Under the pieces are notes generated by a model. The model was not told the DNA's origin, did no database searches, and saw nothing but the letters and a program-made list of their open reading frames with translations. This document shows, piece after piece, positions 15,901-58,901 of a stretch of DNA of 64,000 nt (the first letter of the stretch is position 1; every line of letters begins with the position of its first letter). Position numbers and translations under genes: made by a program. Source of the stretch: Protonemura montana (taxonomy: Eukaryota; Arthropoda; Insecta; Plecoptera; Nemouridae); NCBI GenBank assembly GCA_947568835.1, contig OX387605.1:22696418-22760417 (forward strand), read 5' to 3'.

Positions 15901-18900
15901 GTGCTCCCGACATCCGCGCACTGAAAACCGGCTGCGATTCTGTTTAAATATTAATCAGTCGATTACTCGAAGTTAGCGATTGACGATTCGACTCTTGAAA
16001 GCTGCCAACCACTTGTATCACCTGGTCAACGGGTAATTAGTTTGTGCTAAATATACTTTGTCGAAGTTTGATGAAGCGACAAAGATTTCCAGCGCATTTG
16101 CATAATGAGAATCCGCTTCACTGATCTAATCGTCAGATACACCGATGCCGTGGGTCTTTTGAGCTTCGACACAAATTCAAACCCTTATCTCGTGGGTTAC
16201 ATCCTATTTTCTTGAACCATGCCTTTGAGGGTCTGCTCTAGACTTCCTGTCCTGCCCGCACTGGTTATCGCAGAATGTCAATCACAGCAGCACCCTCCCG
16301 CTAGCAAGCTGCGGCCGAGGAAGAGATAAGCTACTAATTGAAATCTTTTGTGTTCGACTTGCTTGGGGGACGATTGACGATTACAACCACAAGATTCATT
16401 TCCATATCGGTCCACGCGGTCCACGAACATACGCTGCGGCCATTGGTGCGCGATTTTAGAAATTTACGCGTGATTGACGTCTACAAGTTATCTTGGCACT
16501 GTGTTTTCATAATGTTGAAGTCATAATATACCCATGTGATGCTGAATCCCCTTCTAGATTCATGGAAGGCTAGACATTCAATTAATATTCAATTCAATTA
16601 GTATTCATCGAACGCGACTATTGTTCAGGTGGGTTTAATTTAAGCAAGGTTATATCATCTCACAATAACCGATGATACTTTTAGCTACGAACACTTTATC
16701 ATAATTCATTGTATTTGACAGCAATTTGCCCTCCACACTGCCGATTACCTTACGGTTCCTTCCTCCTCGAGGAAAGTCGCGTCGGGAAGGAGGCACACTC
16801 ATTTTGCATGATCATTATTCATTCACAATGACTCTTGCATCATTGCTGCTTGCGGCTAGACGATGACAACAGCACATGTGTTATCAAGACGTTTTCAAAA
16901 TGATCTAAGTTTGTTGCGGTCAGATTTGCTTGGAAAAGGGCGCCCGTCACATTTCCCTTGTTCATATATATAGTCCTGGAGGTTCTGGAGCAAATAAATT
17001 CGTCGTGCTAGGGAGAGGGAATCTTGGCCTGTTGCCCATGTTCCCGTGGGTCTTGAGGCGAGCAAGCAATGCTCACGGGCCACAAAATAGCTCAAGCCGT
17101 TTGCCCACGCCTAGCTGCGTTGTCCCTACCGTCACATTTCCCTATGGCGTTATAAAGTAATGGTATAGCTGGCGGTGTCTCCAGAATTCGGAAAATCTCT
17201 TTGGATTTCTTGAAAACTGCCCAAACAAAACAAAAAAACGGGTTCGACTCTAGAATATAAGATCTCGATGCGAACCTCGGGCTACTTTAAAAATGGCCAC
17301 GAACAAGATGCACCTATTTGATAACGAGGACGTTTGCGAGCATCTTCGGCTTACTAGATTTGGAAGTTTAGTGGTATTCTGACAGCCTTGTTAACTATGG
17401 TGTGAGGATCCGCCCTTTATAGCTCTGCATACCATACCTCCCGTGTTCGCTTTCTTGGACGCCGCTAACCCACTCGGCGTCTTGCCCATGGTTGCAGACG
17501 CGAACAGTGGCCGCTGTTTTCGTCATACTCGTGTTGGCAGCAGCTTGTCTCACGCACCAAGACGCTCAGCAAGGACCATGCTGCGCTCAGCGAGGTCTAT
17601 TCGACGCATCTCGTCAGCCGGCTGGGTCAGGTCGCCGAGGATGTGCAGCGCATCTACAGAAGGGTGAGTCGCTGCACAACACGGTCAACTGTTTCGGGGT
17701 CCTCGGAGAGCCTCTCGGCAACTGAGAACCCCTTGCCTCGCGATAAGATGTCTGCAGGATTTTTCACTTTGCAAGAGAAATATTCAATTTCCTTAAACCA
17801 TGTTCAAGTGTCACTAAGTATACCATGTCAGTGGGCCCTTCAATTAATTTACCTCCAAAGAATTGGTCTGCCTTAGGATTCTTGCGGGTTTCCGGATATC
17901 TGGGAGTCACAGGAGATTTTCTGGTTTCCTATCCCTTGTTTTAACGCCGGGACGCTTCTTCTCATCTCAAGTTGGGGTGGGATCTCTAGGGATGGAAGAG
18001 AGAATTACTGACGACAACCTGTATACCTTTCATTAGAGCGAAACAGAGAGGTCATGCATTTGAAGCGGTATGCTTTTGATTAGTTGCAATTCCCCAATTG
18101 AATTATTTCTTTGAACCAAGGGAGGACTGGGCTACTTATCTCTGTCATCCTATCAGTATCTTTCTCTCTGGATTTCTGGATCTCTGGGCCTGGATTTCTG
18201 TACCAAATGGCAACGCAAATCCTTACCTACTCACCTAAACATGCACCCTGCATATGGCACTTTTGCACGTTGACCAACCTGTTACCAAGTGGTCTGTTTG
18301 CAGTGCCGTGAGATCGGCTACGAGACACACGAAGAGATCCTGCGGGTGCTGCACGAGTTGCACACCACCATGAAGACCTACCACAGCTACCAGGGCGAGT
18401 GTCGCCAAGCGGAGACCAAACTGCGACTCGCCGAAAATCAGCGGCTAAAGCTCGAGCAGAGTCTGCCGAAGGAGAAACTAGACAGATCCAAGAAATTCCG
18501 ACTCATTGAAAAAGAAGTCCAAAAGGTAAACGCTGAGCAAATTGTTGGTATACTTTTATGTTATACTTGTTTCGACCATTTACAATTCTTATTTTCAAGG
18601 GCGCATGTCAGTAGTATTACACGCTATAAGAGTAATCTTCTCCCAGCCCCTTCACTCATTGTCGTTGAAACAACAAGCATGTCATATCATATCAGATCGG
18701 TACATCTACACCATGAGAAGCAAATAAATTACAGTGTTCTCCTTTAATTGTCTAATTAGTGCACAGTGTTGTGCAATTAGACGGCTGGTAAACACAAGCG
18801 ACGCCAGTAGGCGAACCGACTAAAATACCCGCCTTGTGTCGGCCATTTTCTACAATACAAGGGCAAATTCATCAGCTGGCTGCACCCGATCACCGGCACC

Positions 18901-21900: not shown

Positions 21901-24900
21901 TTTGATCTCAAATGCACATAAAGGGTTTATTTTGGGGGTTAAAAATTTAGTAGAAACCAATTTGAGAAATAAAATCAAATCCCCCTGCTTACCCTATCTT
22001 TGCACCTATCGTTGCAGGGCTGTGAGCTGGAAGCGCAGAAGAGCCTGCGCGGCGACCTTGAGCTGCGACTGACGCAGTTGCGTTCTCGCGTGACGTCTCT
22101 GCGAACCGAGTCGGAGGAGGTGTGGAAGACGCTAGAAACAGCCGAGGTGACGCTGCTCGATATGCTCAACGCCAAGGACTACGACTGCGCGGCTTACTTC
22201 GGCGACTCTGCGGTCACGCCTGCCGCCAAGCCGCCAGAGACTGTCGCTATCAAGCTGCGTGCCGATCGACAGGAGACGGAAGAGTTCTACATGGCCGTGA
22301 GTGCTCTTTGTGTGGAAGTTTTTTCACAAGACCAGAACATCAATCATGTAACTATTTTCTAAGTCCTTCAATGCAATGGGATAAGGAAATCATTCATTCG
22401 TCCCATAATAATTCCACATTGACTCTCTCGTTCATCTACCTGGAGAAAAGCGACAGAGTTCGTCTAAAGGTCAAAGTGTTGGACTGTTTTGTTAAGCAGT
22501 TAGTTAGCACCTAAACTAAGTGTTCAGAAAGTTGCAAAAGTGCCAACAAGCTTAAAACTATCAGAGGAGGATAGGAGACAAGAGTCCCTACTTTGACAAG
22601 AGTCTTGTCAAAGTTTCATGGAGATGATGACAAGCCATCCGAACTCGACGTCCCTGAACTGTGTTTGCGCTTACAGAAGTTCCGTGAGTACCTGCTGGGC
22701 ACGAGTCGGATCGCGCGACTCGACACAAAACACGAGCACATCCGGCTGTCGCTGATCGCTTCAAGCTCCGACTCTCCGACGTCGCTCAAGGGGCTCAACA
22801 ACCGCACGGGCCAGATAAAGAAGCCACCGCGCCGGAAACGCATTGGCCGGCTGCAAATGAACGGACAGACCAAGCTGTTCGGCGGTAGCCTCGAGGAGTA
22901 CCTGGAGAGCACCAACGAGGAGATACCACTCATCATCAAGAGCTGCGTGCGGGTCATTAACCTGTATGGTGAGTGTTGCTCAAACCTCTGTCTGCTGATG
23001 GACTTCGATGAGTGATCGCTTCTCAAATTATTTTTGAATATGATGTCCCAATTTATCTGCAATTTCGTGGAAAGATAAGAAACAAATTTTATTTGGAAAT
23101 GGAGCTGGTGGTTTCAGCTCCCTTGTAGAATTACCAGAAGAACCAAAAACCCTACAACATTTTTATTTGTTGTTTGAGGTTAATGTTTCCACTTTCCGAG
23201 CCTTTGCTATAGCTAGATGAGTGTCAAGTTGGAACTCAACGGTAACCAAAATTTATCTGCAGCACACAATTGACCGTTTGGCATCAGCTCTGTGGTGCCA
23301 CCTACGTTTTGTCATCTTATGGTTCTTTGATGGAATTGTGCTGTGACAAATAAAAATATAGACATGTGACAAAACCATAATCAAACAGTATGACTTGGTA
23401 TGCTCCCAGTGGCCCAACCTCCCACCGTTCCCCCATTGGCTGACTTTGCCTTTCATCCGCAGGCCTGCACCACCAAGGCATCTTCCGTGTGTCCGGCTCG
23501 CAGCTGGAAATCAACAACTTTCGTGAGTCCTTCGAGCGCGGCGAAGACCCCCTGGCTGATGTCACCGACGCTTCTGATATTAATTCTGTTGCCGGTGTCC
23601 TCAAGCTCTATCTACGGGAACTGCGCGAACCGCTTTTCCCCATTATCTACTTCGAACACTTCATGGAGCTGGCACGTACGTTCCGCTCACATTCTAAACC
23701 TTATAATTGCAAGTTCAAACGTTGTCAATAGCACGTTATGAAATCAACTGCTTGTTCAGGCTATGAGATTTATTATAAAATAGGTTAAAAGTCTTTTCAT
23801 AACAGTTCTGACATTATAGAAATAATCATTGGTCATATCTGTCACATGCCTTTTTTCTACTCAATTTGCCCTCCAATACATTTACCTGCACTTCAGTACT
23901 CTAACCATGAATAAATCGTTATCAATTCTGGCTGGTTATAGTTCTGACAAAGTCCTAGCATGTAGAATGAAAATTGTCGAGTTAAGTTTGCGACGCTGCA
24001 GAGCTCTACATGACCACTAATTGCTGCTGAAATGTTTCAGAATTAGAATCCAAACAGGACTTCGTCATAAAGCTGAAGGATCTCATCCAAAGTCTTCCGC
24101 GGGCATTTGTTGTTGTACTCCGCTACCTGTTCGCCTTCCTCAATCAGTAAGTGCCAAATTTGTAAATGTTGCCTATGAGAACGATTTTGAGATCCTCTTA
24201 TTCTGCCTTTACTTGTTAAGCAAAATGCCTACCTGTTTTTTGGCTTATAATCAGCTTTAACGTATTTTATTCTATTCATTTACACATAATTGGATGTAAT
24301 ATTATTGAAAGTCCTAATAAAAAACACACAAATTTTAGCCAAACTGTTCCCTTAAATCAAATCCAAAGGGCTGGATTTCTATTTAAAATCTTTGTTTTTA
24401 CCTATGTAAAGTATTGTAACATATGTGTACAACACTATGTATGTAAAGTAATGTAACCTATTGTAATATCTATTGGTCTATGTAACGGATTAACCTCATG
24501 CTTAGATTTTGTTCAAAGTTTCCATAGCTAACTTCTAACACACTAACTTTGCGGTTTATGCCCGATTCATTGTGCCTGTGACTTATTGTTGACCTGCTCT
24601 GTCCAGCCTCTCGGAGTACAGCGACGAGAGCATGATGGACCCATACAACCTGGCAATCTGCTTCGGCCCCACCCTGGTTCCCGTCCCGGAGGACAAGGAC
24701 CAAGTGCAGTACCAGAACCAGGTGAACGAACTCATCAAGAACATCATCCTCTTCAACGAAGACATCTTCCCGCTGGACGGTGGACTGCTCTACGAGAAGT
24801 ACATCAGCAAGGAGCCAGACGAGAAGTAAGCGCCTATGGCAAGAGTCATCTATGCTTGGCTTCCTTTTTACAGACAAGGTTTAAGGGAAACCAGATTTTT

Positions 24901-32122: not shown

Positions 32123-33279
32123 GTTTACAAATTCTGCTTCAAGATAGAAGTGTGTAGTGAAATAAATGATTGGATGACAGGCGAGACTATTTGACCAATT
32201 AGATTATCCTAGGGGTTATTCTAGGGGCTCCATTTGTACAATATAAGTTAAAAATTAAATTAACCACTTTTGTATTGTGCTATTATGTACTTTAAACAAA
32301 TTCAGAGCTTTGGAATCGTCAATTTCTAAAATGTGATTCCGAAACATCTAAAGCCCATTTTTTCATCGAAAATTCATTGAACCCGTAATGCCAAAAGAAG
32401 CATGCAAAATACCCTTTCCCAAAAGAAAATGAAGGATTAAAGGACAAAATAAACTACGCTCATCTACAACCCGAAGCACTAGTTTAAGGCTTGGATGAGT
32501 TACAGTTGACTGACAAGGATGCTACCGTTAAAGATAATCTTTACCTTAGTCTGGTGTTTTGTGAGGAAAGGATGTCTGGTAAAGGATTCATCAGTAATGT
32601 TCACTCCCTTGCCAAGTCAGCCACTTAAATTTGTAAGTAATGGCACCATTTCACCTGTATGATAAAATGATAATAAACTCAAGCGTATATCAATGACTTA
32701 TTTTGATTTTCTAAACAGTTGTTTAGGACCTTTAGTTCTGTAGGTGGGACTGGTAAATTATAGGGTCTGGAAAAATGACTGATGATCGTAGCAAAATCTT
32801 TAATTTCACATACCCCAGAAAAAAAATAATTTCGTGATTTTTTTTGTGTCTGTTCTTGCCCTAACGGCCAAACGTCTGCTCTGATTTGAACAAAATTTGC
32901 AGAGCACATTTATTTGTAATTAGTACCTGCGTTATTTGAGAAATATTGTGAAACCATTCAAAATGTACGATAAATATCATGCTTGATTTATTAACGTCTT
33001 GGAGTGTATAGAGTAAAGACACGTCGTTGTTGAAATTAGCTGAAATAGTTTTCATTACAAGAACAATGTTCAGCTTTGTACATTTTTTTGGTAGTTCTAT
33101 AGCAATGGTTTTACAAAATTACGCTGGGTACCCCTTCCCAAGGAAATATATAGAACTAGTATTGCCACTCAGATTCGCTACGATTGTGAAATTAGTATAA
33201 CAACTAATGGAAAGATGAACAATTTAGCATAAATATATCAAATTATCTGACACACAAAATGTTTTCATTTGCAACTATG

Positions 33280-33450
33280 CAGGGGCTAGTTGTTTTTTCG
33301 CGGCGCTGTTACTGAAATTTTCTAATCGCTTGATGGTAATCAGATATTTGATACCTAATGAGATATCAGGTATTACAAAGAAGAAAAAAAATTACATACG
33401 ACGGCGGAACATATGAAGAAAAGAAGCATGTTGGTAACTTGGGGCGAGAA
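33280..33450 (+). repeat. Diverged left partial unit
   Basis: The start matches the unit start loosely (GGGGCTAGT, then TGCTTGATGG-like words). It then jumps to the AAGAAGCATGTTGGTAACTT segment and lacks module A between them. It ends where unit 1 begins. Confidence 0.75.
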
Positions 33451-35208
33451 AGGGACTAGTAATTTTCTCTCGGCTCTGTTTCTGTTTTTATCCAATTGCT
33501 TGATGGCGCTCAGACATTTGGCGTTACTTCTTACTACAAAGAAGAAAAAAAAAAGAGAACACAGCGGGAATCGAACGCGGGGCAAACTTTCCGCATTCGG
33601 ATACTTTAACCGCTCGACCACGAGAGCAGATGGACATTGCAGAAGTTTTTATGTAAATATAAATTGCTAGTCTATGAAAAAGAGAAGCATGTTGGTAACT
33701 TGCGGCGAGAAAATATCGTCAGCTGTTTAGTTGGTTTATTTCCCGAACGAATTGCCAGTGCAGCGTAGCTAAGTGGTCAGCGATGTGCTTCACGTCGTGG
33801 AGGTAATGCGTTCGGTTCCCGTCGTAGCAGCATTTTTGTTTCTTGCCTTCGAATTAGATATCACTTGACCAAGTATGAAAAATTATTATAAGTCCAGAGT
33901 GTAGTACCTATTTCTGCCAACAGGTGGCTCTGGTGCTAGTTTTGTACTTAACTCTAGTTCCCATGTTCCTATATACTTGATGCTAGACGTAGGAGCTGCA
34001 CACGGGGTATAGGTGGGGTTTGGGGTCGTGGGAACGGCCCGCAAAATTGGCGGGCGCGACTGGCGCGAAGCGCCAGGAGGGCCCGGCGATTTTGCTACTG
34101 TCTAAACCATACGCCCCAAAAAAAAAAAACAGCAAAATTATGCCACTGCGTCGTAGTACACTGTGTGATTCGATCCCAGAATGTCGACAATCCTATGATC
34201 AATTGAACGAGGAATTCGATGCCTTAAACCGCACGACCAAGCGGACTTAAGGTTCCTTCTGAATTTTTTAAATCATGTATGTTACTCCCAGCTACCACTG
34301 GTATACATTGGATGTCCTATTCCAACAGTAAAAAGGTTCCTACGGCGAGTGGATTCGATCCAGGTTAGCGAATGTCTTTGACGTGACCGATACAGCGACG
34401 TTACCATCGTGCCACGAAGACGGCTATACAATGTGGAGAAAAATGAACCTATTTGAATTTCATGTTTGAGATCCCGGCCTAAGTAATAGGTAGGTAAATG
34501 ACATCAAGCGAACATTTTGTTTAGATCTGTTAAGAACAGCATTGCCATTAGCACTCCGGGATCGTATCCCTTAAAATTATTAACATATCACGGACGACTT
34601 TTATTCTTCCTCGCAAGGACGTCCCAACTAGCAGTGCAGAATCCGGTGGCAACTCCAACATAAGGACTTTCACCATTTGCCGCGATTGATCCTGTATGTG
34701 CAAGCATCATAACCGGACTGGTACAACGCCAGTCGAAGCCCGTTGATCAATGGCAGGGCCCCCTTAACTCTTATTTGTAAAGTTTCACCGAACACGCAGC
34801 CGTGTTAAGGGCAGTGCCCCCCCCCCCAGCGCAATCTGGTGGATATAAAATGTACCACGATATTTTCTGAGTTTCATATTTTTGTTGACTCGTGGTAAAT
34901 AATTAATTTAAAATACTCATATCCAAAATAATATCCATTAATATCATTATATCCAATATATCCTAGATAATTTCCAACAGATTGCGCTGGGGGTTACGGT
35001 GCGACTTAACACGATTGCGTGTTCGGTGAAACCATTCAAATGAATGAAGCTGTAGGTTCTGTGATCAGGCATCGCAGTTCGACTGGTGTTCTTCTAGTCG
35101 GGCTGTAATGCTTGCATTATCGCGCTAGATCTTGCTAAATGGTGAAAGCCCATATTGGTGGAGTAGCTCAGCACTGCTGCACCGCCTGAGAGTTGAGGAG
35201 GGGGGGTA
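33451..35208 (+). repeat. Array unit 1
   Basis: This is the first complete unit and the most diverged at its start (GGCTCTGTTT, module A with GCATTCGG). It has a longer A-run before module C and a longer C-run in the foldback. All four tRNA-like modules are present. Confidence 0.93.
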
Positions 35209-35302
35209 AGGGACTAGTAATTTTCTCTCGGCTCAGTTTCTGTTTTAATCCAATTGCTTGATGGCGCTCAGACATTTGGCGTTACTTCTTACTACAAAGA
35301 AG

Positions 35303-35387
35303 AAAAAAAAAAGAGAACACAGCGGGAATCGAACGCGGGGCAAACTTTCCGCATTTGGATACTTTAACCGCTCGACCACGAGAGCAG
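35303..35387 (-). repeat. tRNA-like module A in unit 2, with T-run
   Basis: The minus strand reads TGGTCGAGCGG (A-box-like, 35378-35368), then CGTTCGATTCC (B-box-like, 35335-35325), and then a run of ten T (35312-35303). Head layout resembles Leu/Ser-type tRNA. The T-stem pairs poorly, so a working tRNA is unlikely. The same module recurs in every complete unit and in the right partial copy. Confidence 0.7.
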
Positions 35388-35517
35388 ATGGACATTGCAG
35401 AAGTTTTTATGTAAATATAAATTTCTAGTCTATGAAAAAGAGAAGCATGTTGGTAACTTGGGGCGAGAAAATATCGTCAGCTGTTTAGTTGGTTTATTTC
35501 CCGCGCGATTTGCCAGT

Positions 35518-35595
35518 GCAGCGTAGCTAAGTGGTCAGCGATGTGCTTCACGTCGTGGAGGTAATGCGTTCGGTTCCCGTCGTAGCAGCATTTTT
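35518..35595 (+). repeat. tRNA-like module B in unit 2, with T-run
   Basis: The plus strand reads TAGCTAAGTGG (A-box-like, 35524-35534), then GTTCGGTTCCC (B-box-like, 35568-35578), followed by TTTTT at 35591-35595. A complete cloverleaf could not be drawn with confidence. Confidence 0.65.
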
Positions 35596-35794
35596 GTTTC
35601 TTGCCTTCGAATTAGATATCACTTGACCAAATATGAAAAATTATTATAAGTCCAGAGTGTAGTACCTATTTCTGCCAACAGGTGGCTCTGGTGCTAGTTT
35701 TGTACTTAACTCTAGTTCCCATGTTCCTATATACTTGATGCTAGACGTAGGAGCTGCACACGGGGTATAGGTGGGGTTTGGGGTCGTGGGAACG

Positions 35795-35834
35795 GCCCGC
35801 AAAATTGGCGGGCGCGACTGGCGCGAAGCGCCAG
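35795..35834. repeat. Pair of GC-rich hairpins in unit 2
   Basis: GCCCGC and GCGGGC flank seven bases (35795-35813). Next comes CTGGCGCGAAGCGCCAG (35818-35834), a perfect 7-bp stem with a GAA loop. Both are kept in all complete units. Confidence 0.85.
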
Positions 35835-35874
35835 GAGGGCCCGGCAATTTTGCTACTGTCTAAACCATACGCCC

Positions 35875-36005
35875 AAAAAAAAAAACAGCAAAATTATGCC
35901 ACTGCGTCGTAGTACACTGTCTGATTCGAACCCAGAATGTCGACAATCCTATGATCATTTGAACAAGGAATTCGATGCCTTAAACCGCACGACCAAGCGG
36001 ACTTA
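35875..36005 (-). repeat. tRNA-like module C in unit 2, with T-runs
   Basis: The minus strand reads TGGTCGTGCGG (35995-35985) and GGGTTCGAATC (35933-35923). The distance between them would fit a tRNA with a long variable arm. TCTGG and TCAGA can pair around GTTCGAA as a T-arm. TTTT (35893-35890) and a run of eleven T (35885-35875) follow. Confidence 0.65.
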
Positions 36006-36084
36006 AGGTTTTTACTAAATTTTTTCAATCATGATTGTTACTCCAGCTACCACTGGTATACATTGGATGTCCTATTCCAACAGT

Positions 36085-36179
36085 AAAAAGGTTCCTACGG
36101 CGAGTGGATTCGATCCAGGTTAGCGAATGTCTTTGACGTGACCGATACAGCGACGTTACCATCGTGCCACGAAGACGGC
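36085..36179 (-). repeat. tRNA-like module D in unit 2, with T-run
   Basis: The minus strand reads TGGCACGATGG (36169-36159), then GGATCGAATCC (36116-36106, one base from the B-box consensus GGTTCGANNCC), then TTTTT (36089-36085). The acceptor ends do not pair. Confidence 0.65.
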
Positions 36180-36384
36180 TATACAATGTGGAGAAAAATG
36201 AACCTATTTGAATTTCATGTTTGAAATCCCGGCCTAAGTAATGGGTAGGTAAATGACATCAAGCGAACATTTTGTTTAGATCTGTTAAGAACAGCATTGC
36301 CATTAGCACTCCGGGATCGTATCCTTTAAAATTATTAACATATCACGGACGACTTTTATTCTTCCTCGCAAGCACGGCCCAACT

Positions 36385-36945
36385 AGCAGTGCAGAATCCG
36401 GTGGCAACTCCAACATAAGGACTTTCACCATTTGCCGCGATTGATCCTGTATGTGCAAGCATCATAACCGGACTGGTACAACGCCAGTCGAAGCCCGTTG
36501 ATCAATGGCAGGGCCCCCTTAACTCTTATTTGTAAAGTTTCACCGAACACGCAGCCGTGTTAAGGGCAGTGCCCCCCCCAGCGCAATCTGGTGGATATAA
36601 AATGTACCACGATATTTTCTGAGTTTCATATTTTTGTTGACTCGTGGTAAATAATTAATTTAAAATACTCATATCCACAATAATATCCATTAATATCATT
36701 ATATCCAATATATCCTAGATAATTTCCAACAGATTGCGCTGGGGGTTACGGTGCGACTTAACACGATTGCGTGTTCGGTGAAACCATTCAAATGAATGAA
36801 GCTGTAGGTTCTGTGATCAGGCATCGCAGTTCGACTGGTGTTCTTCTAGTCGGGCTGTAATGCTTGCATTATCGCGCTAGATCTTGCTAAATGGTGAAAG
36901 CCCATATTGGTGGAGTAGCTCAGCACTGCTGCACCGCCTGAGAGT
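36385..36945. mobile_element. Foldback / MITE-like element in unit 2
   Basis: The core (36537-36784) starts GTTTCACCGAACACGC and ends GCGTGTTCGGTGAAAC; inner arms match over about 50 bp (to CAGCGCAATCTG / CAGATTGCGCTG). Outside the core, a second inverted zone of lower identity extends each arm to roughly 36,385 and 36,945 (GGACTTTCACCATTT against AAATGGTGAAAGCCC). The middle is AT-rich. No transposase is encoded. Copies recur in each unit, for example core 34782-35032 in unit 1. Clear target-site duplications were not seen. Confidence 0.7.
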
Positions 36946-36960
36946 TGAGGAGGGGGGGTA

Positions 36961-38712
36961 AGGGACTAGTAATTTTCTCTCGGCTCAGTTTCTGTTTTAA
37001 TCCAATTGCTTGATGGCGCTCAGACATTTGGCGTTACTTCTTACTACAAAGAAGAAAAAAAAAAGAGAACACAGCGGGAATCGAACGCGGGGCAAACTTT
37101 CCGCATTTGGATACTTTAACCGCTCGACCACGAGAGCAGATGGACATTGCAGAAGTTTTTATGTAAATATAAATTTCTAGTCTATGAAAAAGAGAAGCAT
37201 GTTGGTAACTTGGGGCGAGAAAATATCGTCAGCTGTTTAGTTGGTTTATTTCCCGCGCGATTTGCCAGTGCAGCGTAGCTAAGTGGTCAGCGATGTGCTT
37301 CACGTCGTGGAGGTAATGCGTTCGGTTCCCGTCGTAGCAGCATTTTTGTTTCTTGCCTTCGAATTAGATATCACTTGACCAAATATGAAAAATTATTATA
37401 AGTCCAGAGTGTAGTACCTATTTCTGCCAACAGGTGGCTCTGGTGCTAGTTTTGTACTTAACTCTAGTTCCCATGTTCCTATATACTTGATGCTAGACGT
37501 AGGAGCTGCACACGGGGTATAGGTGGGGTTTGGGGTCGTGGGAACGGCCCGCAAAATTGGCGGGCGCGACTGGCGCGAAGCGCCAGGAGGGCCCGGCAAT
37601 TTTGCTACTGTCTAAACCATACGCCCAAAAAAAAAAACAGCAAAATTATGCCACTGCGTCGTAGTACACTGTCTGATTCGAACCCAGAATGTCGACAATC
37701 CTATGATCATTTGAACAAGGAATTCGATGCCTTAAACCGCACGACCAAGCGGACTTAAGGTTCCTACTAAATTTTTTCAATCATGATTGTTACTCCAGCT
37801 ACCACTGGTATACATTGGATGTCCTATTCCAACAGTAAAAAGGTTCCTACGGCGAGTGGATTCGATCCAGGTTAGCGAATGTCTTTGACGTGACCGATAC
37901 AGCGACGTTACCATCTTGCCACGAAGACGGCTATACAATGCGGAGAAAAATGAAACTATTTGAATTTTATGTTTGAAATCCCGGCCTAAGTAATGGGTAG
38001 GTAAATGACATCGAGCGAACATTTTGTTTAGATCTGTTAAGAACAGCATTGCCATTAGCACTCCGGGATCGTATCCTTTAAAATTATTAACATATCACGG
38101 ACGACTTGTATTCTTCCTCGCAAGCACGTCCCAACTAGCAGTGCAGAATCCGGTGGCAACTCCAACATAAGGACTTTCACCATTTGCCGCGATTGATCCT
38201 GTATGTGCAAGCATCATAACCGGACTGGTACAACGCCAGTCGAAGCCCGTTGATCAATGGCAGGGCCCCCTTAACTCTTATTTGTAAAGTTTCACCGAAC
38301 ACGCAGCCGTGTTAAGGGCAGTGCCCCCCCCAGCGCAATCTGGTGGATATAAAATGTACCACGATATTTTCTGAGTTTCATATTTTTGTTGACTCGTGGT
38401 AAATAATTAATTTAAAATACTCATATCCACAATAATATCCATTAATATCATTATATCCAATATATCCTAGATAATTTCCAACAGATTGCGCTGGGGGTTA
38501 CGGTGCGACTTAACACGATTGCGTGTTCGGTGAAACCATTCAAATGAATGAAGCTGTAGGTTCTGTGATCAGGCATCGCAGTTCGACTGGTGTTCTTCTA
38601 GTCGGGCTGTAATGCTTGCATTATCGCGCTAGATCTTGCTAAATGGTGAAAGCCCATATTGGTGGAGTAGCTCAGCACTGCTGCACCGCCTGAGAGTTGA
38701 GGAGGGGGGGTA
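36961..38712 (+). repeat. Array unit 3
   Basis: A 1752-bp unit with module D variants CTTGCCAC and ATGCGG, shared with units 6 and 7. Its later CTTGTATTC is shared with unit 4, so it is a mosaic. Confidence 0.95.
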
Positions 38713-40464
38713 AGGGACTAGTAATTTTCTCTCGGCTCAGTTTCTGTTTTAATCCAATTGCTTGATGGCGCTCAGACATTTGGCGTTACTTCTTACTACA
38801 AAGAAGAAAAAAAAAAGAGAACACAGCGGGAATCGAACGCGGGGCAAACTTTCCGCATTTGGATACTTTAACCGCTCGACCACGAGAGCAGATGGACATT
38901 GCAGAAGTTTTTATGTAAATATAAATTTCTAGTCTATGAAAAAGAGAAGCATGTTGGTAACTTGGGGCGAGAAAATATCGTCAGCTGTTTAGTTGGTTTA
39001 TTTCCCGCGCGATTTGCCAGTGCAGCGTAGCTAAGTGGTCAGCGATGTGCTTCACGTCGTGGAGGTAATGCGTTCGGTTCCCGTCGTAGCAGCATTTTTG
39101 TTTCTTGCCTTCGAATTAGATATCACTTGACCAAATATGAAAAATTATTATAAGTCCAGAGTGTAGTACCTATTTCTGCCAACAGGTGGCTCTGGTGCTA
39201 GTTTTGTACTTAACTCTAGTTCCCATGTTCCTATATACTTGATGCTAGACGTAGGAGCTGCACACGGGGTATAGGTGGGGTTTGGGGTCGTGGGAACGGC
39301 CCGCAAAATTGGCGGGCGCGACTGGCGCGAAGCGCCAGGAGGGCCCGGCAATTTTGCTACTGTCTAAACCATACGCCCAAAAAAAAAAACAGCAAAATTA
39401 TGCCACTGCGTCGTAGTACACTGTCTGATTCGAACCCAGAATGTCGACAATCCTATGATCATTTGAACAAGGAATTCGATGCCTTAAACCGCACGACCAA
39501 GCGGACTTACGGTTTTTACTAAATTTTTTCAATCATGATTGTTACTCCAGCTACCACTGGTATACATTGGATGTCCTATTCCAACAGTAAAAAGGTTCCT
39601 ACAGCGAGTGGATTCGATCCAGGTTAGCGAATGTCTTTGACGTGACCGATACAGCGACGTTACCATCGTGCCACGAAGACGGCTATACAATGTGGAGAAA
39701 AATGAACCTATTTGAATTTCATGTTTGAAATCCCGGCCTAAGTAATGGGTAGGTAAATGACATCAAGCGAACATTTTGTTTAGATCTGTTAAGAACAGCA
39801 TTGCCATTAGCACTCCGGGATCGTATCCTTTAAAATTATTAACATATCACGGACGACTTGTATTCTTCCTCGCAAGCACGTCCCAACTAGCAGTGCAGAA
39901 TCCGGTGGCAACTCCAACATAAGGACTTTCACCATTTGCCGCGATTGATCCTGTATGTGCAAGCATCATAACCGGACTGGTACAACGCCAGTCGAAGCCC
40001 GTTGATCAATGGCAGGGCCCCCTTAACTCTTATTTGTAAAGTTTCACCGAACACGCAGCCGTGTTAAGGGCAGTGCCCCCCCCAGCGCAATCTGGTGGAT
40101 ATAAAATGTACCACGATATTTTCTGAGTTTCATATTTTTGTTGACTCGTGGTAAATAATTAATTTAAAATACTCATATCCACAATAATATCCATTAATAT
40201 CATTATATCCAATATATCCTAGATAATTTCCAACAGATTGCGCTGGGGGTTACGGTGCGACTTAACACGATTGCGTGTTCGGTGAAACCATTCAAATGAA
40301 TGAAGCTGTAGGTTCTGTGATCAGGCATCGCAGTTCGACTGGTGTTCTTCTAGTCGGGCTGTAATGCTTGCATTATCGCGCTAGATCTTGCTAAATGGTG
40401 AAAGCCCATATTGGTGGAGTAGCTCAGCACTGCTGCACCGCCTGAGAGTTGAGGAGGGGGGGTA
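38713..40464 (+). repeat. Array unit 4
   Basis: A 1752-bp unit with CTACAGCGAG (shared with unit 5), CTTGTATTC (shared with unit 3) and a private CTTACGG. Confidence 0.95.
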
Positions 40465-42216
40465 AGGGACTAGTAATTTTCTCTCGGCTCAGTTTCTGTT
40501 TTAATCCAATTGCTTGATGGCGCTCAGACATTTGGCGTTACTTCTTACTACAAAGAAGAAAAAAAAAAGAGAACACAGCGGGAATCGAACGCGGGGCAAA
40601 CTTTCCGCATTTGGATACTTTAACCGCTCGACCACGAGAGCAGATGGACATTGCAGAAGTTTTTATGTAAATATAAATTTCTAGTCTATGAAAAAGAGAA
40701 GCATGTTGGTAACTTGGGGCGAGAAAATATCGTCAGCTGTTTAGTTGGTTTATTTCCCGCGCGATTTGCCAGTGCAGCGTAGCTAAGTGGTCAGCGATGT
40801 GCTTCACGTCGTGGAGGTAATGCGTTCGGTTCCCGTCGTAGCAGCATTTTTGTTTCTTGCCTTCGAATTAGATATCACTTGACCAAATATGAAAAATTAT
40901 TATAAGTCCAGAGTGTAGTACCTATTTCTGCCAACAGGTGGCTCTGGTGCTAGTTTTGTACTTAACTCTAGTTCCCATGTTCCTATATACTTGATGCTAG
41001 ACGTAGGAGCTGCACACGGGGTATAGGTGGGGTTTGGGGTCGTGGGAACGGCCCGCAAAATTGGCGGGCGCGACTGGCGCGAAGCGCCAGGAGGGCCCGG
41101 CAATTTTGCTACTGTCTAAACCATACGCCCAAAAAAAAAAACAGCAAAATTATGCCACTGCGTCGTAGTACACTGTCTGATTCGAACCCAGAATGTCGAC
41201 AATCCTATGATCATTTGAACAAGGAATTCGATGCCTTAAACCGCACGACCAAGCGGACTTAAGGTTTTTACTAAATTTTTTCAATCATGATTGTTACTCC
41301 AGCTACCACTGGTATACATTGGATGTCCTATTCCAACAGTAAAAAGGTTCCTACAGCGAGTGGATTCGATCCAGGTTAGCGAATGTCTTTGACGTGACCG
41401 ATACAGCGACGTTACCATCGTGCCACGAAGACGGCTATACAATGTGGAGAAAAATGAACCTATTTGAATTTCATGTTTGAAATCCCGGCCTAAGTAATGG
41501 GTAGGTAAATGACATCAAGCGAACATTTTGTTTAGATCTGTTAAGAACAGCATTGCCATTAGCACTCCGGGATCGTATCCTTTAAAATTATTAACATATC
41601 ACGGACGACTTTTATTCTTCCTCGCAAGCACGTCCCAACTAGCAGTGCAGAATCCGGTGGCAACTCCAACATAAGGACTTTCACCATTTGCCGCGATTGA
41701 TCCTGTATGTGCAAGCATCATAACCGGACTGGTACAACGCCAGTCGAAGCCCGTTGATCAATGGCAGGGCCCCCTTAACTCTTATTTGTAAAGTTTCACC
41801 GAACACGCAGCCGTGTTAAGGGCAGTGCCCCCCCCAGCGCAATCTGGTGGATATAAAATGTACCACGATATTTTCTGAGTTTCATATTTTTGTTGACTCG
41901 TGGTAAATAATTAATTTAAAATACTCATATCCACAATAATATCCATTAATATCATTATATCCAATATATCCTAGATAATTTCCAACAGATTGCGCTGGGG
42001 GTTACGGTGCGACTTAACACGACTGCGTGTTCGGTGAAACCATTCAAATGAATGAAGCTGTAGGTTCTGTGATCAGGCATCGCAGTTCGACTGGTGTTCT
42101 TCTAGTCGGGCTGTAATGCTTGCATTATCGAGCTGGATCTTGCTAAATGGTGAAAGCCCATATTGGTGGAGTAGCTCAGCACTGCTGCACCGCCTGAGAG
42201 TTGAGGAGGGGGGGTA
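40465..42216 (+). repeat. Array unit 5
   Basis: A 1752-bp unit with CTACAGCGAG (shared with unit 4), CTTTTATTC, and private changes in the foldback right arm (CGACTGCGTG, CGAGCTGGAT). Confidence 0.95.
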
Positions 42217-43965
42217 AGGGACTAGTAATTTTCTCTCGGCTCAGTTTCTGTTTTAATCCAATTGCTTGATGGCGCTCAGACATTTGGCGTTACTTCTTAC
42301 TACAAAGAAGAAAAAAAAAAGAGAACACAGCGGGAATCGAACGCGGGGCAAACTTTCCGCATTTGGATACTTTAACCGCTCGACCACGAGAGCAGATGGA
42401 CATTGCAGAAGTTTTTATGTAAATATAAATTTCTAGTCTATGAAAAAGAGAAGCATGTTGGTAACTTGGGGCGAGAAAATATCGTCAGCTGTTTAGTTGG
42501 TTTATTTCCCGCGCGATTTGCCAGTGCAGCGTAGCTAAGTGGTCAGCGATGTGCTTCACGTCGTGGAGGTAATGCGTTCGGTTCCCGTCGTAGCAGCATT
42601 TTTGTTTCTTGCCTTCGAATTAGATATCACTTGACCAAATATGAAAAATTATTATAAGTCCAGAGTGTAGTACCTATTTCTGCCAACAGGTGGCTCTGGT
42701 GCTAGTTTTGTACTTAACTCTAGTTCCCATGTTCCTATATACTTGATGCTAGACGTAGGAGCTGCACACGGGGTATAGGTGGGGTTTGGGGTCGTGGGAA
42801 CGGCCCGCAAAATTGGCGGGCGCGACTGGCGCGAAGCGCCAGGAGGGCCCGGCAATTTTGCTACTGTCTAAACCATACGCCCAAAAAAAAAACAGCAAAA
42901 TTATGCCACTGCGTCGTAGTACACTGTCTGATTCGAACCCAGAATGTCGACAATCCTATGATCATTTGAACAAGGAATTCGATGCCTTAAACCGCACGAC
43001 CAAGCGGACTTAAGGTTCCTACTAAATTTTTTCAATCATGATTGTTACTCCAGCTACCACTGGTATACATTGGATGTCCTATTCCAACAGTAAAAAGGTT
43101 CCTACGGCGAGTGGATTCGATCCAGGTTAGCGAATGTCTTTGACGTGACCGATACAGCGACGTTACCATCTTGCCACGAAGACGGCTATACAATGCGGAG
43201 AAAAATGAAACTATTTGAATTTTATGTTTGAAATCCCGGCCTAAGTAATGGGTAGGTAAATGACATCGAGCGAACATTTTGTTTAGATCTGTTAAGAACA
43301 GCATTGCCATTAGCACTCCGGGATCGTATCCTTTAAAATTATTAACATATAACGGACGACTTTTATTCTTCCTCGCAAGCACGTCCCAACTAGCAGTGCA
43401 GAATCCGGCGGCAACTCCAACATAAGGACTTTCACCATTTGCCGCGATTGATCCTGTATGTGCAAGCATCATAACCGGACTAGTACAACGCCAGTCGAAG
43501 CCCGTTGATCAATGGCAGGGCCCCCTTAACTCTTATTTGTAAAGTTTCACCGAACACGCAGCCGTGTTAAGTGCAGTGACCCCCAGCGCAATCTGGTGGA
43601 TATAAAATGTACCACGATATTTTCCGAGTTTCATATTTTTGTTGACTCGTGGTAAATAATTAATTTAAAATACTCATATCCACAATAATATCCATTAATA
43701 TCATTATATCCAATATATCCTAGATAATTTCCAACAGATTGCGCTGGGGGTTACGGTGCGACTTAACACGATTGCGTGTTCGGTGAAACCATTCAAATGA
43801 ATGAAGCTGTAGGTTCTGTGATCAGGCATCGCAGTTCGACTGGTGTTCTTCTAGTCGGGCTGTAATGCTTGCATTATCGCGCTAGATCTTGCTAAATGGT
43901 GAAAGCCCATATTGGTGGAGTAGCTCAGCACTGCTGCACCGCCTGAGAGTTGAGGAGGGGGGGTA
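42217..43965 (+). repeat. Array unit 6
   Basis: A 1749-bp unit. It shares a long variant block with unit 7: ATATAACGG, GGCGGCAACT, GGACTAGTAC and GTGACCCCCAGCG. The last of these fits the opposite foldback arm better than other units do. Confidence 0.95.
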
Positions 43966-45729
43966 AGGGACTAGTAATTTTCTCTCGGCTCAGTTTCTGT
44001 TTTAATCCAATTGCTTGATGGCGCTCAGACATTTGGCGTTACTTCTTACTACAAAGAAGAAAAAAAAAAGAGAACACAGCGGGAATCGAACGCGGGGCAA
44101 ACTTTCCGCATGTGGATACTTTAACCGCTCGACCACGAGAGCAGATGGACATTGCAGAAGTTTTTATGTAAATATAAATTTCTAGTCTATGAAAAAGAGA
44201 AGCATGTTGGTAACTTGGGGCGAGAAAATATCGTCAGCTGTTTAGTTGGTTTATTTCCCGCGCGATTTGCCAGTGCAGCGTAGCTAAGTGGTCAGCGATG
44301 TGCTTCACGTCGTGGAGGTAATGCGTTCGGTTCCCGTCGTAGCAGCATTTTTGTTTCTTGCCTTCGAATTAGATATCACTTGACCAAATATGAAAAATTA
44401 TTATAAGTCCAGAGTGTAGTACCTATTTCTGCCAACAGGTGGCTCTGGTGCTAGTTTTGTACTTAACTCTAGTTCCCATGTTCCTATATACTTGATGCTA
44501 GACGTAGGAGCTGCACACGGGGTATAGGTGGGGTTTGGGGTCGTGGGAACGGCCCGCAAAATTGGCGGGCGCGACTGGCGCGAAGCGCCAGGAGGGCCCG
44601 GCAATTTTGCTACTGTCTAAACCATACGCCCAAAAAAAAAACAGCAAAATTATGCCACTGCGTCGTAGTACACTGTCTGATTCGAACCCAGAATGTCGAC
44701 AATCCTATGATCATTTGAACAAGGAATTCGATGCCTTAAACCGCACGACCAAGCGGACTTAAGGTTCCTACTAAATTTTTTCAATCATGATTGTTACTCC
44801 AGCTACCACTGGTATACATTGGATGTCCTATTCCAACAGTAAAAAGGTTCCTACGGCGAGTGGATTCGATCCAGGTTAGCGAATGTCTTTGACGTGACCG
44901 ATACAGCGACGTTACCATCTTGCCACGAAGACGGCTATACAATGCGGAGAAAAATGAAACTATTTGAATTTTATGTTTGAAATCCCGGCCTAAGTAATGG
45001 GTAGGTAAATGACATCGAGCGAACATTTTGTTTAGATCTGTTAAGAACAGCATTGCCATTAGCACTCCGGGATCGTATCCTTTAAAATTATTAACATATA
45101 ACGGACGACTTTTATTCTTCCTCGCAAGCACGTCCCAACTAGCAGTGCAGAATCCGGCGGCAACTCCAACATAAGGACTTTCACCATTTGCCGCGATTGA
45201 TCCTGTATGTGCAAGCATCATAACCGGACTAGTACAACGCCAGTCGAAGCCCGTTGATCAATGGCAGGGCCCCCTTAACTCTTATTTGTAAAGTTTCACC
45301 GAACACGCAGCCGTGTTAAGTGCAGTGACCCCCAGCGCAATCTGGTGGATATAAAATGTACCACGATATTTTCCGAGTTTCATATTTTTGTTGACTCGTG
45401 GTAAATAATTAATTTAAAATACTCATATCCAATATAATATCCATTCATATCATAATATCCGATATATCCTAGAAAATATCCAACAGATTGCGCTGGGGGT
45501 TACGGTGCGACTTAACACGATTGCGTGTTCGGTGAAACATTTCAAATGAATGAAGCTGTAGGCTCTGTGATCAGGCATCGCAGTTCGACTGGTTTTGTTC
45601 TAGTCGGGCTGTAATGCTTGCATTATCGCGCTAGATCTTTCTAAATGGTGAAAGCCCATATTCGTGGAGTAGCTCAGCGCCGCTGCACCGCCTGAGTGCA
45701 TCATTTGGGCCATCATTTGCAACTATGCA
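43966..45729 (+). repeat. Array unit 7
   Basis: Nearly identical to unit 6 up to about 45,425, then changes abruptly to a diverged sequence through the foldback right arm. The edge of the homogenised block therefore lies inside this unit. Confidence 0.93.
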
Positions 45730-46292
45730 AGGCCTAGTAATTTTTTCTCGGCTCTGTTACTGTAATTTTCCAATTGCTTGATGGCGCTCAGACATTTGAC
45801 CTTACGTTCTCACTACAAAGAAGAAAAAAAAAGAAAAGGCAGCGGGATTCGAACGCGGGGCATAACTTTCTGCATTCGGATACTTTAACCGCTCGACCAC
45901 GAGAGCAGATGCATATTGGCGAAGTATTTATGTAAACATAAATTGCTAACCTATGAGGAAGAAAAGCATGTTGGTGACTTCGGGCGAGAAAATATCGTCA
46001 GCTGTTTAGTTGGTATATTTCCTTCAATTTTTACCAGTGCAGCGTGGCTATATGGTATAGCTATATGGTCAGCGGTATGCGTCATGTAGCGGAGGTTAAG
46101 CGTTCGGTTCCTGTCATAGTAGCATTTATGTTTCTTGCCATCGAATTAGATATCACTTGACCAAATATGAAAAAATATTATAAGTCCAGAAAGTAGTACC
46201 TATTTCTATTAACAGGTGGCTCTGGTGTTAGTTTTGTACTCAACTCTATTTCCCATTCTTAAAGCTTGATACTTAACGTAGGAGCTTATCTT
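45730..46292 (+). repeat. Diverged right partial unit
   Basis: Matches the first third of the unit at lower identity. Modules A (about 45842-45912) and B (about 46033-46112) are present; B contains a short internal duplication (GGCTATATGGTATAGCTATA). Similarity ends near GTAGGAGCT. Confidence 0.85.
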
Positions 46293-46956: not shown

Positions 46957-50389
<3,433 letters not shown>

Positions 50390-51260: not shown

Positions 51261-51286
51261 GGGGGGGGGGGGGGGGGGGGGGGGGG
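51261..51286 (+). repeat. Poly(G) tract, 26 bp
   Basis: This is an uninterrupted run of 26 G, the longest homopolymer in the window. Confidence 0.95.
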
Positions 51287-55950: not shown

Positions 55951-56327
55951 GGGACCTGGATATCCAGCTTTAGGTGCAAGCTTTGCCACCGGGGGCGTTT
56001 TAGCATGTCTTCAACTGGTAGCAGGTGTAATGGAAGCCTGTCAATCAGACCACGAGCAACATAACACGACACGGAAAGCAATATAAAAGGAGGACACCTT
56101 TATTGATACAGTTGAATAATACTTTTATGTGGAGTAAATAAGACTTTAGTACCCACCTTTGAAATAAGAACAGTGTTTGGCAAAGCTCTGACAATATGTG
56201 TTTAGAGGAAAGGTGCAGAGTGCATAAATGTTATTCGCTGGTTAATTTAGCACCGTCAAGATGAGTAGCCAGCTTAAACTAACTTACACACAGCGAGATT
56301 AATGTCTTAAATTATCTGTGGCCCGGT

Positions 56328-57590
56328 GACTACAAGGGTCTATACGGAATGTGTCTCTACGATCGTACGGCCAGGTGACTACAAGGGTGTATACGGCTAT
56401 GCGTCTCTACGATCGTACGGCCAGGTGACTACAGTATACGGCTATGCGTCTCTACGATCGTACGGCCAGGTGACTACAGTATACGGCTATGTGTCTCTAC
56501 GATCAAACGGCCAGGTGGCTACAGTATACGGCTATGTGTCTCTACGATCGCACGGCCAGGTGACTACAAGGGTGTATACGGCTATGCGTCTCTACGATCG
56601 TACGGCCAGGTGACTACAGTATACGGCTATGCGTCTCTACGATCGTACGGCCAGGTGACTACAGTATACGGCTATGTGTCTCTACGATCAAACGGCCAGG
56701 TGACTACAGTATACGGCTATGTGTCTCTACGATCAAACGGCCAGGTGGCTACAGTATACGGCTATGTGTCTCTACGATCAAACGGCCAGGTGGCTACAGT
56801 ATACGGCTATGCGTCTCTACGATCGTACGGCCAGGTGGCTACAGTATACGGCTATGTGTCTCTACGATCGCACGGCCAGGTGACTACAAGGGTGTATACG
56901 GCTATGACTCTCTACGATCGTACGGCCCGGTGACTACAAGGGTCTATACGGCTATGACTCTCTACGATCGTACGGCCCGGTGACTACAGTATACGGCTAT
57001 GTGTCTCTACGATCGTACGGCCAGGTGGCTACAAGGGTGTATACGGCTATGTGTCTCAACGATCGTACGGCCAGGTGACTACAGTATACGGCTATGTGTC
57101 TCTACGATCGTACGGCCAGGTGGCTACAAGGGTCTATACGGCTATGTGTCTCAACGATCGTACGGCCAGGTGGCTACAAGGGTGTATACGGCTATGTGTC
57201 TCTACGATCGTACGGCCAGGTGACTACAAGGGTGTATACGGCTATGTGTCTCTACGATCGTACGGCCAGGTGGCTACAGTATACGGCTATGTGTCTCTAC
57301 GATCGTACGGCCAGGTGACTACAAGGGTCTAAACGGCTATGTGTCTCTTAGATCGTACGGCCACGTGATTACAAGGGTCTATACGGCTATGTGTTTCTAC
57401 GATCGTACGGCCAGGTGGCTACAAGGGTGTATACGGCTATGTGTCTCAACGATCGTACGGCCAGGTGGCTACAAGGCTATATACGGCTATGTGTTTCTAC
57501 GATCGTACGGCAAGGTGGCTTCAAGGGTGCATACGGCTATGTGTCTCTACGATCGTACGGCCAGGTGGTTACCAGGCTGCATACGGCTAT
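56328..57590 (+). repeat. Minisatellite with 45-bp and 50-bp monomers, about 26 copies
   Basis: The short monomer begins GGTGACTACAGTATACGGCT and ends with a CTACGATCGTACGGCCA block. The long form has AAGGGT(G/C)T in place of GT, adding 5 bp. Both forms are mixed along the array. Variant sites (GATCAAACGG, GATCGCACGG, CTCAACG, GACTCTC) cluster in neighbours, as expected from unequal exchange. The 45-bp form keeps an open frame (VTTVYGYASLRSYGQ) while the 50-bp form shifts it. Each monomer contains the palindromes ACGATCGT and GTATAC. Confidence 0.95.
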
Positions 57591-58901
57591 GCGTATTGCG
57601 TATATCGAATCAAGTAATCAGCGGGTTGTTCTAGCGTAGAATCGTACACCGTTCACGACTTTCATTCTTGAATCTTGCAGTTGATTTTTCCGCTGTATCC
57701 TCACTTCTTCGTTTGCACCAGACAAACGCTACGTCGAGCGGGAAATGATATCACAGCACACGTACCACAGTGAGCTACCGGGACCCGGCCAGGGGCAACG
57801 CCCAGACTGCTTCCTATCTCCAGTTTTTCTTTTTATTTAAGATATCGAGAAAGTGAAAAGAGGTTCATTACAAGATTCTATGAAAAAACGTTGCATGATG
57901 GGCACCCCAAGCGAAAATACTGCGAGGAGCAATCTAACGAGAATCAAAAATCAACATCATTAATTTAAAATGACTCGGCTCGCGGCGCACAAGTCATTAA
58001 AACGCCGGTTGGTTGTACCTCTACGGAGCAAAGGGTACGGGGCAGGGGACATACGTTGTCTGCTGACACCGAGTCAGCGGCCCTAGAGCTCATTTACTCG
58101 CTCACTATCTCAAGACTTGCCTGAAGAAACCGGCTCTGGGTACCGACAAATTCACGGGTTCAACTGTAATATACATTCCACCAATTACTCGGCCCCCCCT
58201 GCGCTCAGAAAACGTATCGACGCTGCTTTCATAAATTTAGCCCAAAGACGCTCTCACCCTATTATTAGATGTTTCTAATATCGGTGACGCACGGCTATTG
58301 ATAAATGTCAAGGCTAGTTCGTAGCGACCCTCTCACTCTATCGCGGTGCGTGTGTGCGAGCTTCTCGGAAAATTGCTGACTGGGAAATGGGAACACCCCC
58401 TCTCCAACCCCTCCGCCTGCTCGGGCAGGGTAGCGATGTTACGGTCCACTGGCAGACAGGCGCTATAAAGGGCGGAATATGCACTTACTTGGCTCTAAGG
58501 CCGCTGTCTGGATGTTATTGCGTCCTAGGTTGGTCGAGTGCGTCTAGCGTGGAAGCTGGGAAAGACAAGAGAGCCGAGATGGGTTCGACGCCCGCCTGCG
58601 GCCCACAGCCACCGACGATTCCGATATCTCTTTCATTAGCACGCGGTTATTTCCTCGTAATAATACTCGAACGAGGGAGAGTAACTTTGCCGGAATTAAT
58701 GGCGGCTGGGCCACGGGTTCGGCTTTTTTTTTTTCCCCGCAGGACGAAACGAGCCGAATTTGAGAAATGAAGCGCGTGAATTTGGCAATCGCACTAAAAC
58801 CCACGCCTCCGAGAAGCCTATTGAATTCGCCGAGTAATTTGTCGATAAAATGTTTATAACGAGAGGGTCGGTGGTGCTGTGATGGTGGTGTTCAAGGGGG
58901 A

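Follow-up and report, generated by a model that had tools for sequence, protein, structure and literature searches.

The stretch considered here comprises 64,000 nucleotides of the plecopteran Protonemura montana (Nemouridae; GenBank assembly GCA_947568835.1, contig OX387605.1, positions 22,696,418 to 22,760,417 of the forward strand), which we call the window and within which all coordinates below are counted. It contains a tandem array of long units, each carrying four modules that resemble transfer RNA (tRNA) genes, with the paired A and B boxes of RNA polymerase III (Pol III) promoters and a run of T behind them. The array is situated between a RhoGAP-domain stretch on the plus strand (23444-23728; PF00620, E 2.9e-20), which we regard as probably part of an srGAP-like gene, and, on the minus strand, a protein-kinase stretch (49398-49700; PF00069, E 1.8e-8). 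Both stretches look like split exons, and the array is presumably intergenic. On the evidence set out below, it has the look of a group of tRNA relics that was amplified, more than that of an ordinary satellite.

The array and its modules

Self-comparison of the window gave a period of 1,752 bp, with seven full units that start at 33452, 35210, 36962, 38714, 40466, 42218 and 43967 and a partial copy at either edge (none of these features having a strand):

33265-33451: left edge, diverged partial unit copy with an internal deletion and most of module A gone, delimited by self-BLAST and alignment
33452-45694: seven complete units in tandem, 1728-1758 bp long, with 95.4-99.8% pairwise identity
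45695-46292: right edge, diverged partial unit copy with modules A and B only

Identity is 99.3-99.8% among units 2-5 and lower for units 1 and 7, with unit 7 standing furthest from the others. In the right partial copy, 53 of the 399 aligned positions outside modules A and B are substituted relative to the consensus, and homology ends near consensus position 546, some 8 bp short of a GC-rich hairpin described below; this end of homology is possibly a breakpoint of the duplication. With units that run head to tail and are homogenised, and edges that are more diverged, the array belongs among satellites or other long tandem repeats, and a homogenised middle between older edges is the usual picture for such an array. 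An earlier note on this DNA had already described units of about 1.75 kb, and its boundaries for the array proved right to within about 15 bp.

The modules were located by a weight-matrix scan for A and B boxes, with weights based on general tRNA knowledge, which at the thresholds applied picked out four A/B pairs in the unit consensus. Their places in unit 2 are as follows, the coordinates covering tRNA positions 1-73 and the distances to the T-runs being counted from position 73:

35314-35385, minus strand: module A; box spacing 43; closest to the reference tRNAs for Ser and Gly; T10 at 1 nt
35517-35588, plus strand: module B; box spacing 43; closest to the reference tRNAs for Ile and Ala; acceptor stem 6/7; no A58; T5 at 2 nt
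35911-36002, minus strand: module C; box spacing 63; closest to the reference tRNAs for Leu and Ser; acceptor stem 6/7; no A14; T4 at 17 nt, followed by a T11
36095-36176, minus strand: module D, the weakest; box spacing 53; acceptor stem 3/7; no A14 or T54; T5 at 5 nt

The consensus pairs score 27.5, 22.3, 20.9 and 17.0 (modules A to D). Over the whole array, 30 pairs reach a score of at least 14, of which the full units account for 28 and the right partial copy for two (eight copies each of A and B, seven each of C and D); module A thus recurs in the other six full units and in the right partial. This agrees with the earlier count of about 30 modules in 13 kb, as does the scan with the orientation given there (three minus, one plus). 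Furthermore, a T-run lies within 40 nt behind 29 of the 30 pairs, the exception being module B of the right partial copy, and every full unit retains all four box pairs together with their T-runs. The runs measure 10, 5, 4 and 5 in the consensus, and the additional T11 behind module C of unit 2 is read as A11 on the plus strand at 35875-35885, so that the T-runs reported before for that unit hold as well.

Comparison with shuffled sequence, a check that the earlier note had itself named, sets the combined pattern apart from chance. In 2,000 dinucleotide shuffles of the unit, the mean was 0.82 pairs; at least four pairs occurred in 25 of the 2,000, and at least four pairs with T-runs in none. 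Outside the array, the 50,972 bp of the window hold 15 pairs, or 0.52 per 1,752 bp.

tRNA likeness and decay

Since the position of the boxes dictates where a tRNA would have its acceptor stem and its 3' end, pairing and T-run placement provide tests that are independent of how the modules were picked. In a reference set of 21 tRNAs, 19 have an A/B spacing of 42-45 and the other two, Leu and Ser, one of 53; modules A, B and D fall within these values. Counted from tRNA position 73, the consensus T-runs begin after 1, 2, 17 and 5 nt (modules A to D); TTTT occurs within a random 8-nt stretch of the unit with a frequency of 0.039. None of the four consensus module bodies has an internal TTTT, which is also true of about 50-60% of same-length windows of the unit. 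The acceptor stems retain 4/7, 6/7, 6/7 and 3/7 pairs, that is 19 of 28 (P 0.0017 from 20,000 draws of random 7-mer pairs), and when the outer T-stem pairs (7/12) are included P falls to 0.0007. Taken over the four modules, spacing, terminator placement and acceptor pairing are those of tRNA-derived sequence, with the spacing of C and the acceptor stems of A and D as exceptions.

A tRNA covariance model, built from the same 21 sequences and run unfiltered over the 64-kb window with a rough calibration, aligned with module B over its full length in all seven full units, at 20.7 bits (E 4e-4, a rough value), and found module A at 10.9-13.4 bits, again in 7/7; the best matches outside the array reached 9.2, 8.2 and 7.8 bits. 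In global alignments, the best reference tRNAs were Ser for A, Ile for B, Leu for C and Ser for D, and each of these alignments beat all 200 mononucleotide shuffles of its module, in a score to which the boxes contribute. ARAGORN at -ps70 marked B, C and D of the consensus (and not A) together with three other spots, and at -ps60 many more; as these runs had no shuffle control, we did not use them as evidence. Support for the tRNA derivation proposed before extends beyond the boxes, to spacing (module C excepted), T-run placement, acceptor pairing and the covariance match of module B.

By the tests made, these modules are nevertheless not working tRNA genes. ARAGORN at default settings found no tRNA gene in the window, Rfam gave no match there at its gathering score, and no Rfam tRNA match appeared at E up to 10 in 33200-37300 or 35300-36200. 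Beyond the failure of the standard finders to recognise them, the modules other than A lack near-invariant bases: A58 is absent from all eight copies of B, A14 from all seven copies of C, and both A14 and T54 from all seven copies of D. The earlier note had implied that cloverleaf pairing was gone, and this is true in part only, as the acceptor stems testify. Identical base losses in every unit mean either that decay preceded amplification or that homogenisation spread the losses.

Nor do the modules stand out as conserved. Among the seven units, 8 of 331 module columns vary, compared with 28 of 846 in the spacer and 24 of 560 in the palindrome (in a count without columns that hold only indels and without the final 20-odd of the alignment), and modules and spacer do not differ significantly (P 0.57). 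Module A differs from its counterpart in the right partial copy at 6 of 74 positions, which is not significantly below the 53 of 399 outside the modules (P 0.25). Module B of that copy, which has lost its T-run, shows 13 substitutions in 73 positions plus 13 extra nt in the A-box region, and is if anything more diverged than the surroundings (P 0.36).

Inverted repeats and other features of the window

Two further structures are present in each unit, both absent from the earlier note and given here for unit 2, neither having a strand:

36385-36930: imperfect palindrome, with arms at about 36385-36595 and 36725-36930 and an AT-rich centre
35755-35895: GC-rich hairpin of a size like that of miniature inverted-repeat transposable elements (MITEs); minimum free energy -66.9 kcal/mol, z -6.5

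The palindrome occupies about 550 bp per unit, and 147 of 201 aligned bases are identical between the consensus arms; the GC-rich hairpin occurs at the equivalent place in other units too. Folded as RNA, the palindrome of unit 2 (36380-36935) reaches -228 kcal/mol (z -11.9), far better than shuffles. A functional hairpin RNA was rejected, for the mismatches that could pair as G-U number 14 on the plus-strand RNA and 10 on the minus-strand RNA (binomial P 0.54), and at none of the 24 variable palindrome sites across the seven units was there a compensating change in the partner. Given the lack of both strand bias and compensation, we prefer to read the palindrome as an ageing inverted duplication at the level of DNA rather than as a selected hairpin RNA.

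Other candidates were dismissed likewise. The low-threshold Rfam matches MIR7533, snoR66 and TB9Cs3H1 score far under gathering, and MIR7533 and TB9Cs3H1 fall on the hairpins. The longest listed stop-to-stop frame in the array, on the minus strand, has 158 amino acids (aa) in two of the seven units and 105 aa in a third, and the copy at 44784-45257 matched no Pfam family at E up to 0.1, so that an encoded protein was rejected. Elsewhere, the window contains a second tandem array at 56320-57591 (a 50-bp unit in about 27 copies, with long open stretches in more than one frame), a run of C at 56-85 (30 bases, 93% match) and a run of G at 51261-51286 (26 bases).

Origin of the array and known systems

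The explanation that we favour, with a probability of roughly 0.62, is that a cluster of tRNA genes or pseudogenes in mixed orientation decayed, was tandemly duplicated and became homogenised. At the start, four such genes would have lain beside an inverted-repeat (foldback or MITE-like) segment, somewhere between the RhoGAP-domain gene and the protein-kinase gene. They would then have shed cloverleaf pairing and some of their near-invariant bases, after which tandem duplication of the segment may have produced a long satellite of low copy number. Unequal crossing-over or gene conversion would have homogenised the inner units and left older, diverged copies at the edges. The array, its 30 box pairs, the placement of the terminators, the tRNA-like geometry of most modules, the decay common to the copies, the palindrome and the divergence between edge and centre are observed; from them we infer descent from real tRNA genes rather than from another tRNA-like family, decay before amplification, and recombination as the mechanism. 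Most likely the array has no maintained function, and some copies, chiefly of module A, could retain a weak capacity to recruit TFIIIC and Pol III. Four tRNA-like modules with T-runs in each unit, as previously described, are thus upheld, and the interpretation placed on them is upheld in part: among the three options then offered, the decayed tRNA cluster fits best.

Several observations weigh against this explanation. The tRNA ancestry would be a matter of pattern, and both the 21 reference tRNAs and the box weights came from general knowledge rather than from a database. Module C has a spacing longer than that of any of the 21, and the covariance model gave it 7.7 bits in six units and 10.3 in one; since six of its seven copies score below the three matches outside the array, it cannot be separated from background. 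Module D pairs at only 3/7 in the acceptor stem and had no match listed in the same scan, nor were modules A and B of the right partial copy listed there. Module A, for its part, looks well kept: its nine checked near-invariant positions are intact in 8/8 copies, and on the A-box side it shows no difference from the right partial copy in 24 positions, which pure decay would not predict, even though its divergence overall is not significantly lower than outside the modules. Finally, a stray A/B pair at 17161-17251 scores 26.2, about the strength of the best in the array, and has no T-run. Because of this pair, a single box pair is not decisive, and it is the fourfold, terminator-linked pattern that carries the weight.

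The good state of module A leaves some room for an array that is kept for its promoters. That the array represents a maintained block of about 30 tRNA-derived TFIIIC/Pol III promoters, giving rise to a family of new small RNAs multiplied for dosage or acting as a TFIIIC-bound insulator, seems unlikely to us; under that proposal the tRNA fold would have been dropped while boxes and terminators were kept, and the insulator would separate the two flanking genes. Quite improbable, too, is an array of working small-RNA genes transcribed by Pol III, in which the cloverleaf would have been abandoned, type 2 promoters and terminators retained, and dosage multiplied by the repeats. The completeness of box pairs and T-runs in each full unit, terminators at the tRNA 3' end behind consensus bodies free of internal TTTT, and the intact near-invariant positions of module A would all suit such genes, and a precedent is provided by rodent 4.5SH RNA, whose hundreds of genes each lie in a tandem repeat of 4-5 kb (PMC10137851). 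Against such genes, the modules do not differ significantly from the spacer in variability among the units, B, C and D lack near-invariant bases, and module B of the right partial copy has its insertion, its substitutions and no T-run. Very doubtful is a TFIIIC-binding boundary, for which transcription would be unneeded and many B boxes with inverted repeats would insulate the two genes. Thirty B-box-like sites, one in each A/B pair, in 13 kb between exons on opposite strands, with a large palindrome adjoining, would be consistent with it, as would the fission-yeast (Schizosaccharomyces pombe) element IR-L, whose boundary activity is weakened by deleting five TFIIIC-recruiting B boxes (PMC4502379). 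On the other side, conservation of the modules among units is not significantly above that of the spacer. The box of module B lacks A58 and that of D lacks T54, although initiator tRNA itself carries A at position 54.

Two explanations are based on mobile elements, and we hold both to be highly improbable. One, the first option of the earlier note, is a satellite built from the heads of tRNA-derived short interspersed nuclear elements (SINEs). Box pairs without a good cloverleaf are typical of such heads, and the modules do resemble different tRNAs. The fit is poor, for the tRNA end is followed at once by the terminator, at the distances given above, and a body cannot fit before the stop signal. 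The head followed by a body and an A/T-rich or simple-repeat tail, by which a tRNA-derived SINE is known, was not found. Moreover, self-BLAST (E up to 1e-5, rows of at least 60 bp) revealed no further module copy in the window, and a loose BLAST search of the 64 kb with the four modules of unit 2 produced, outside the array, no more than three matches of 11-12 bases. The other is a transposable element in tandem, of foldback/MITE or Helitron-like type, with the tRNA-like modules as passengers. The palindrome with its arms of about 200 bp and the second, GC-rich hairpin in each unit speak for it. Against it stand the longest frame, present in two of seven units and without a Pfam match, and an inspection by eye that found nothing clear or consistent in the way of target-site duplications or Helitron TC...CTRR borders; exact-pattern scans of viral contigs and of bacterial and archaeal genomes, collections without animal genomes, gave no match.

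Among the open-access matches listed, none appeared, by title or start of abstract, to describe a satellite whose unit holds several degenerate tRNA modules, which is weak evidence that no such description exists. With decayed tRNA-like genes whose boxes and terminators persist in every unit, the array lends itself to asking whether Pol III promoters can survive the tRNA that they once produced, and also whether TFIIIC sites alone maintain or spread such arrays.

Known systems offer likenesses that we treat as analogies and not as signs of membership in their functional classes; the array, if it functions, would act in the manner of these. Fission-yeast IR elements likewise combine several B boxes with inverted repeats, and in S. 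pombe IR-L five TFIIIC-recruiting B boxes are required for full boundary activity (PMC4502379); boundary function was demonstrated there, whereas the resemblance here is one of sequence only. Rodent 4.5SH also has an A/B-box Pol III gene in each multi-kb tandem unit (PMC10137851), but it is 7SL-derived, expressed and present in hundreds of copies within repeats of 4-5 kb, in contrast to the four putative tRNA-derived modules per unit of this array. Entamoeba histolytica has 25 array units, each with as many as five tRNA genes (PMC2652664), and the two are alike in having tandem units with multiple tRNA genes or their putative remains; the Entamoeba arrays, however, comprise nearly all genomic tRNA genes, in E. 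histolytica with short tandem repeats between them, while here a gene region contains a single array, made of decayed modules. Homogeneous tRNA tandem repeats have been called uncommon outside Entamoeba (PMC4041453). The same report describes the human 1q23.3 tDNA repeat, with a 7.3-kb unit of five tRNA genes (two sense, three antisense) in 9-43 copies, to whose genes short poly-A-minus reads align, possibly from identical genes elsewhere. Its tRNAs are recognised, and it is GC-rich and CTCF-bound, unlike the 1.75-kb unit of P. montana, which has about seven copies and degenerate tRNA-like genes; both nonetheless consist of a long tandem unit with several tRNA genes, or what appear to be their remains, on both strands in a gene region.

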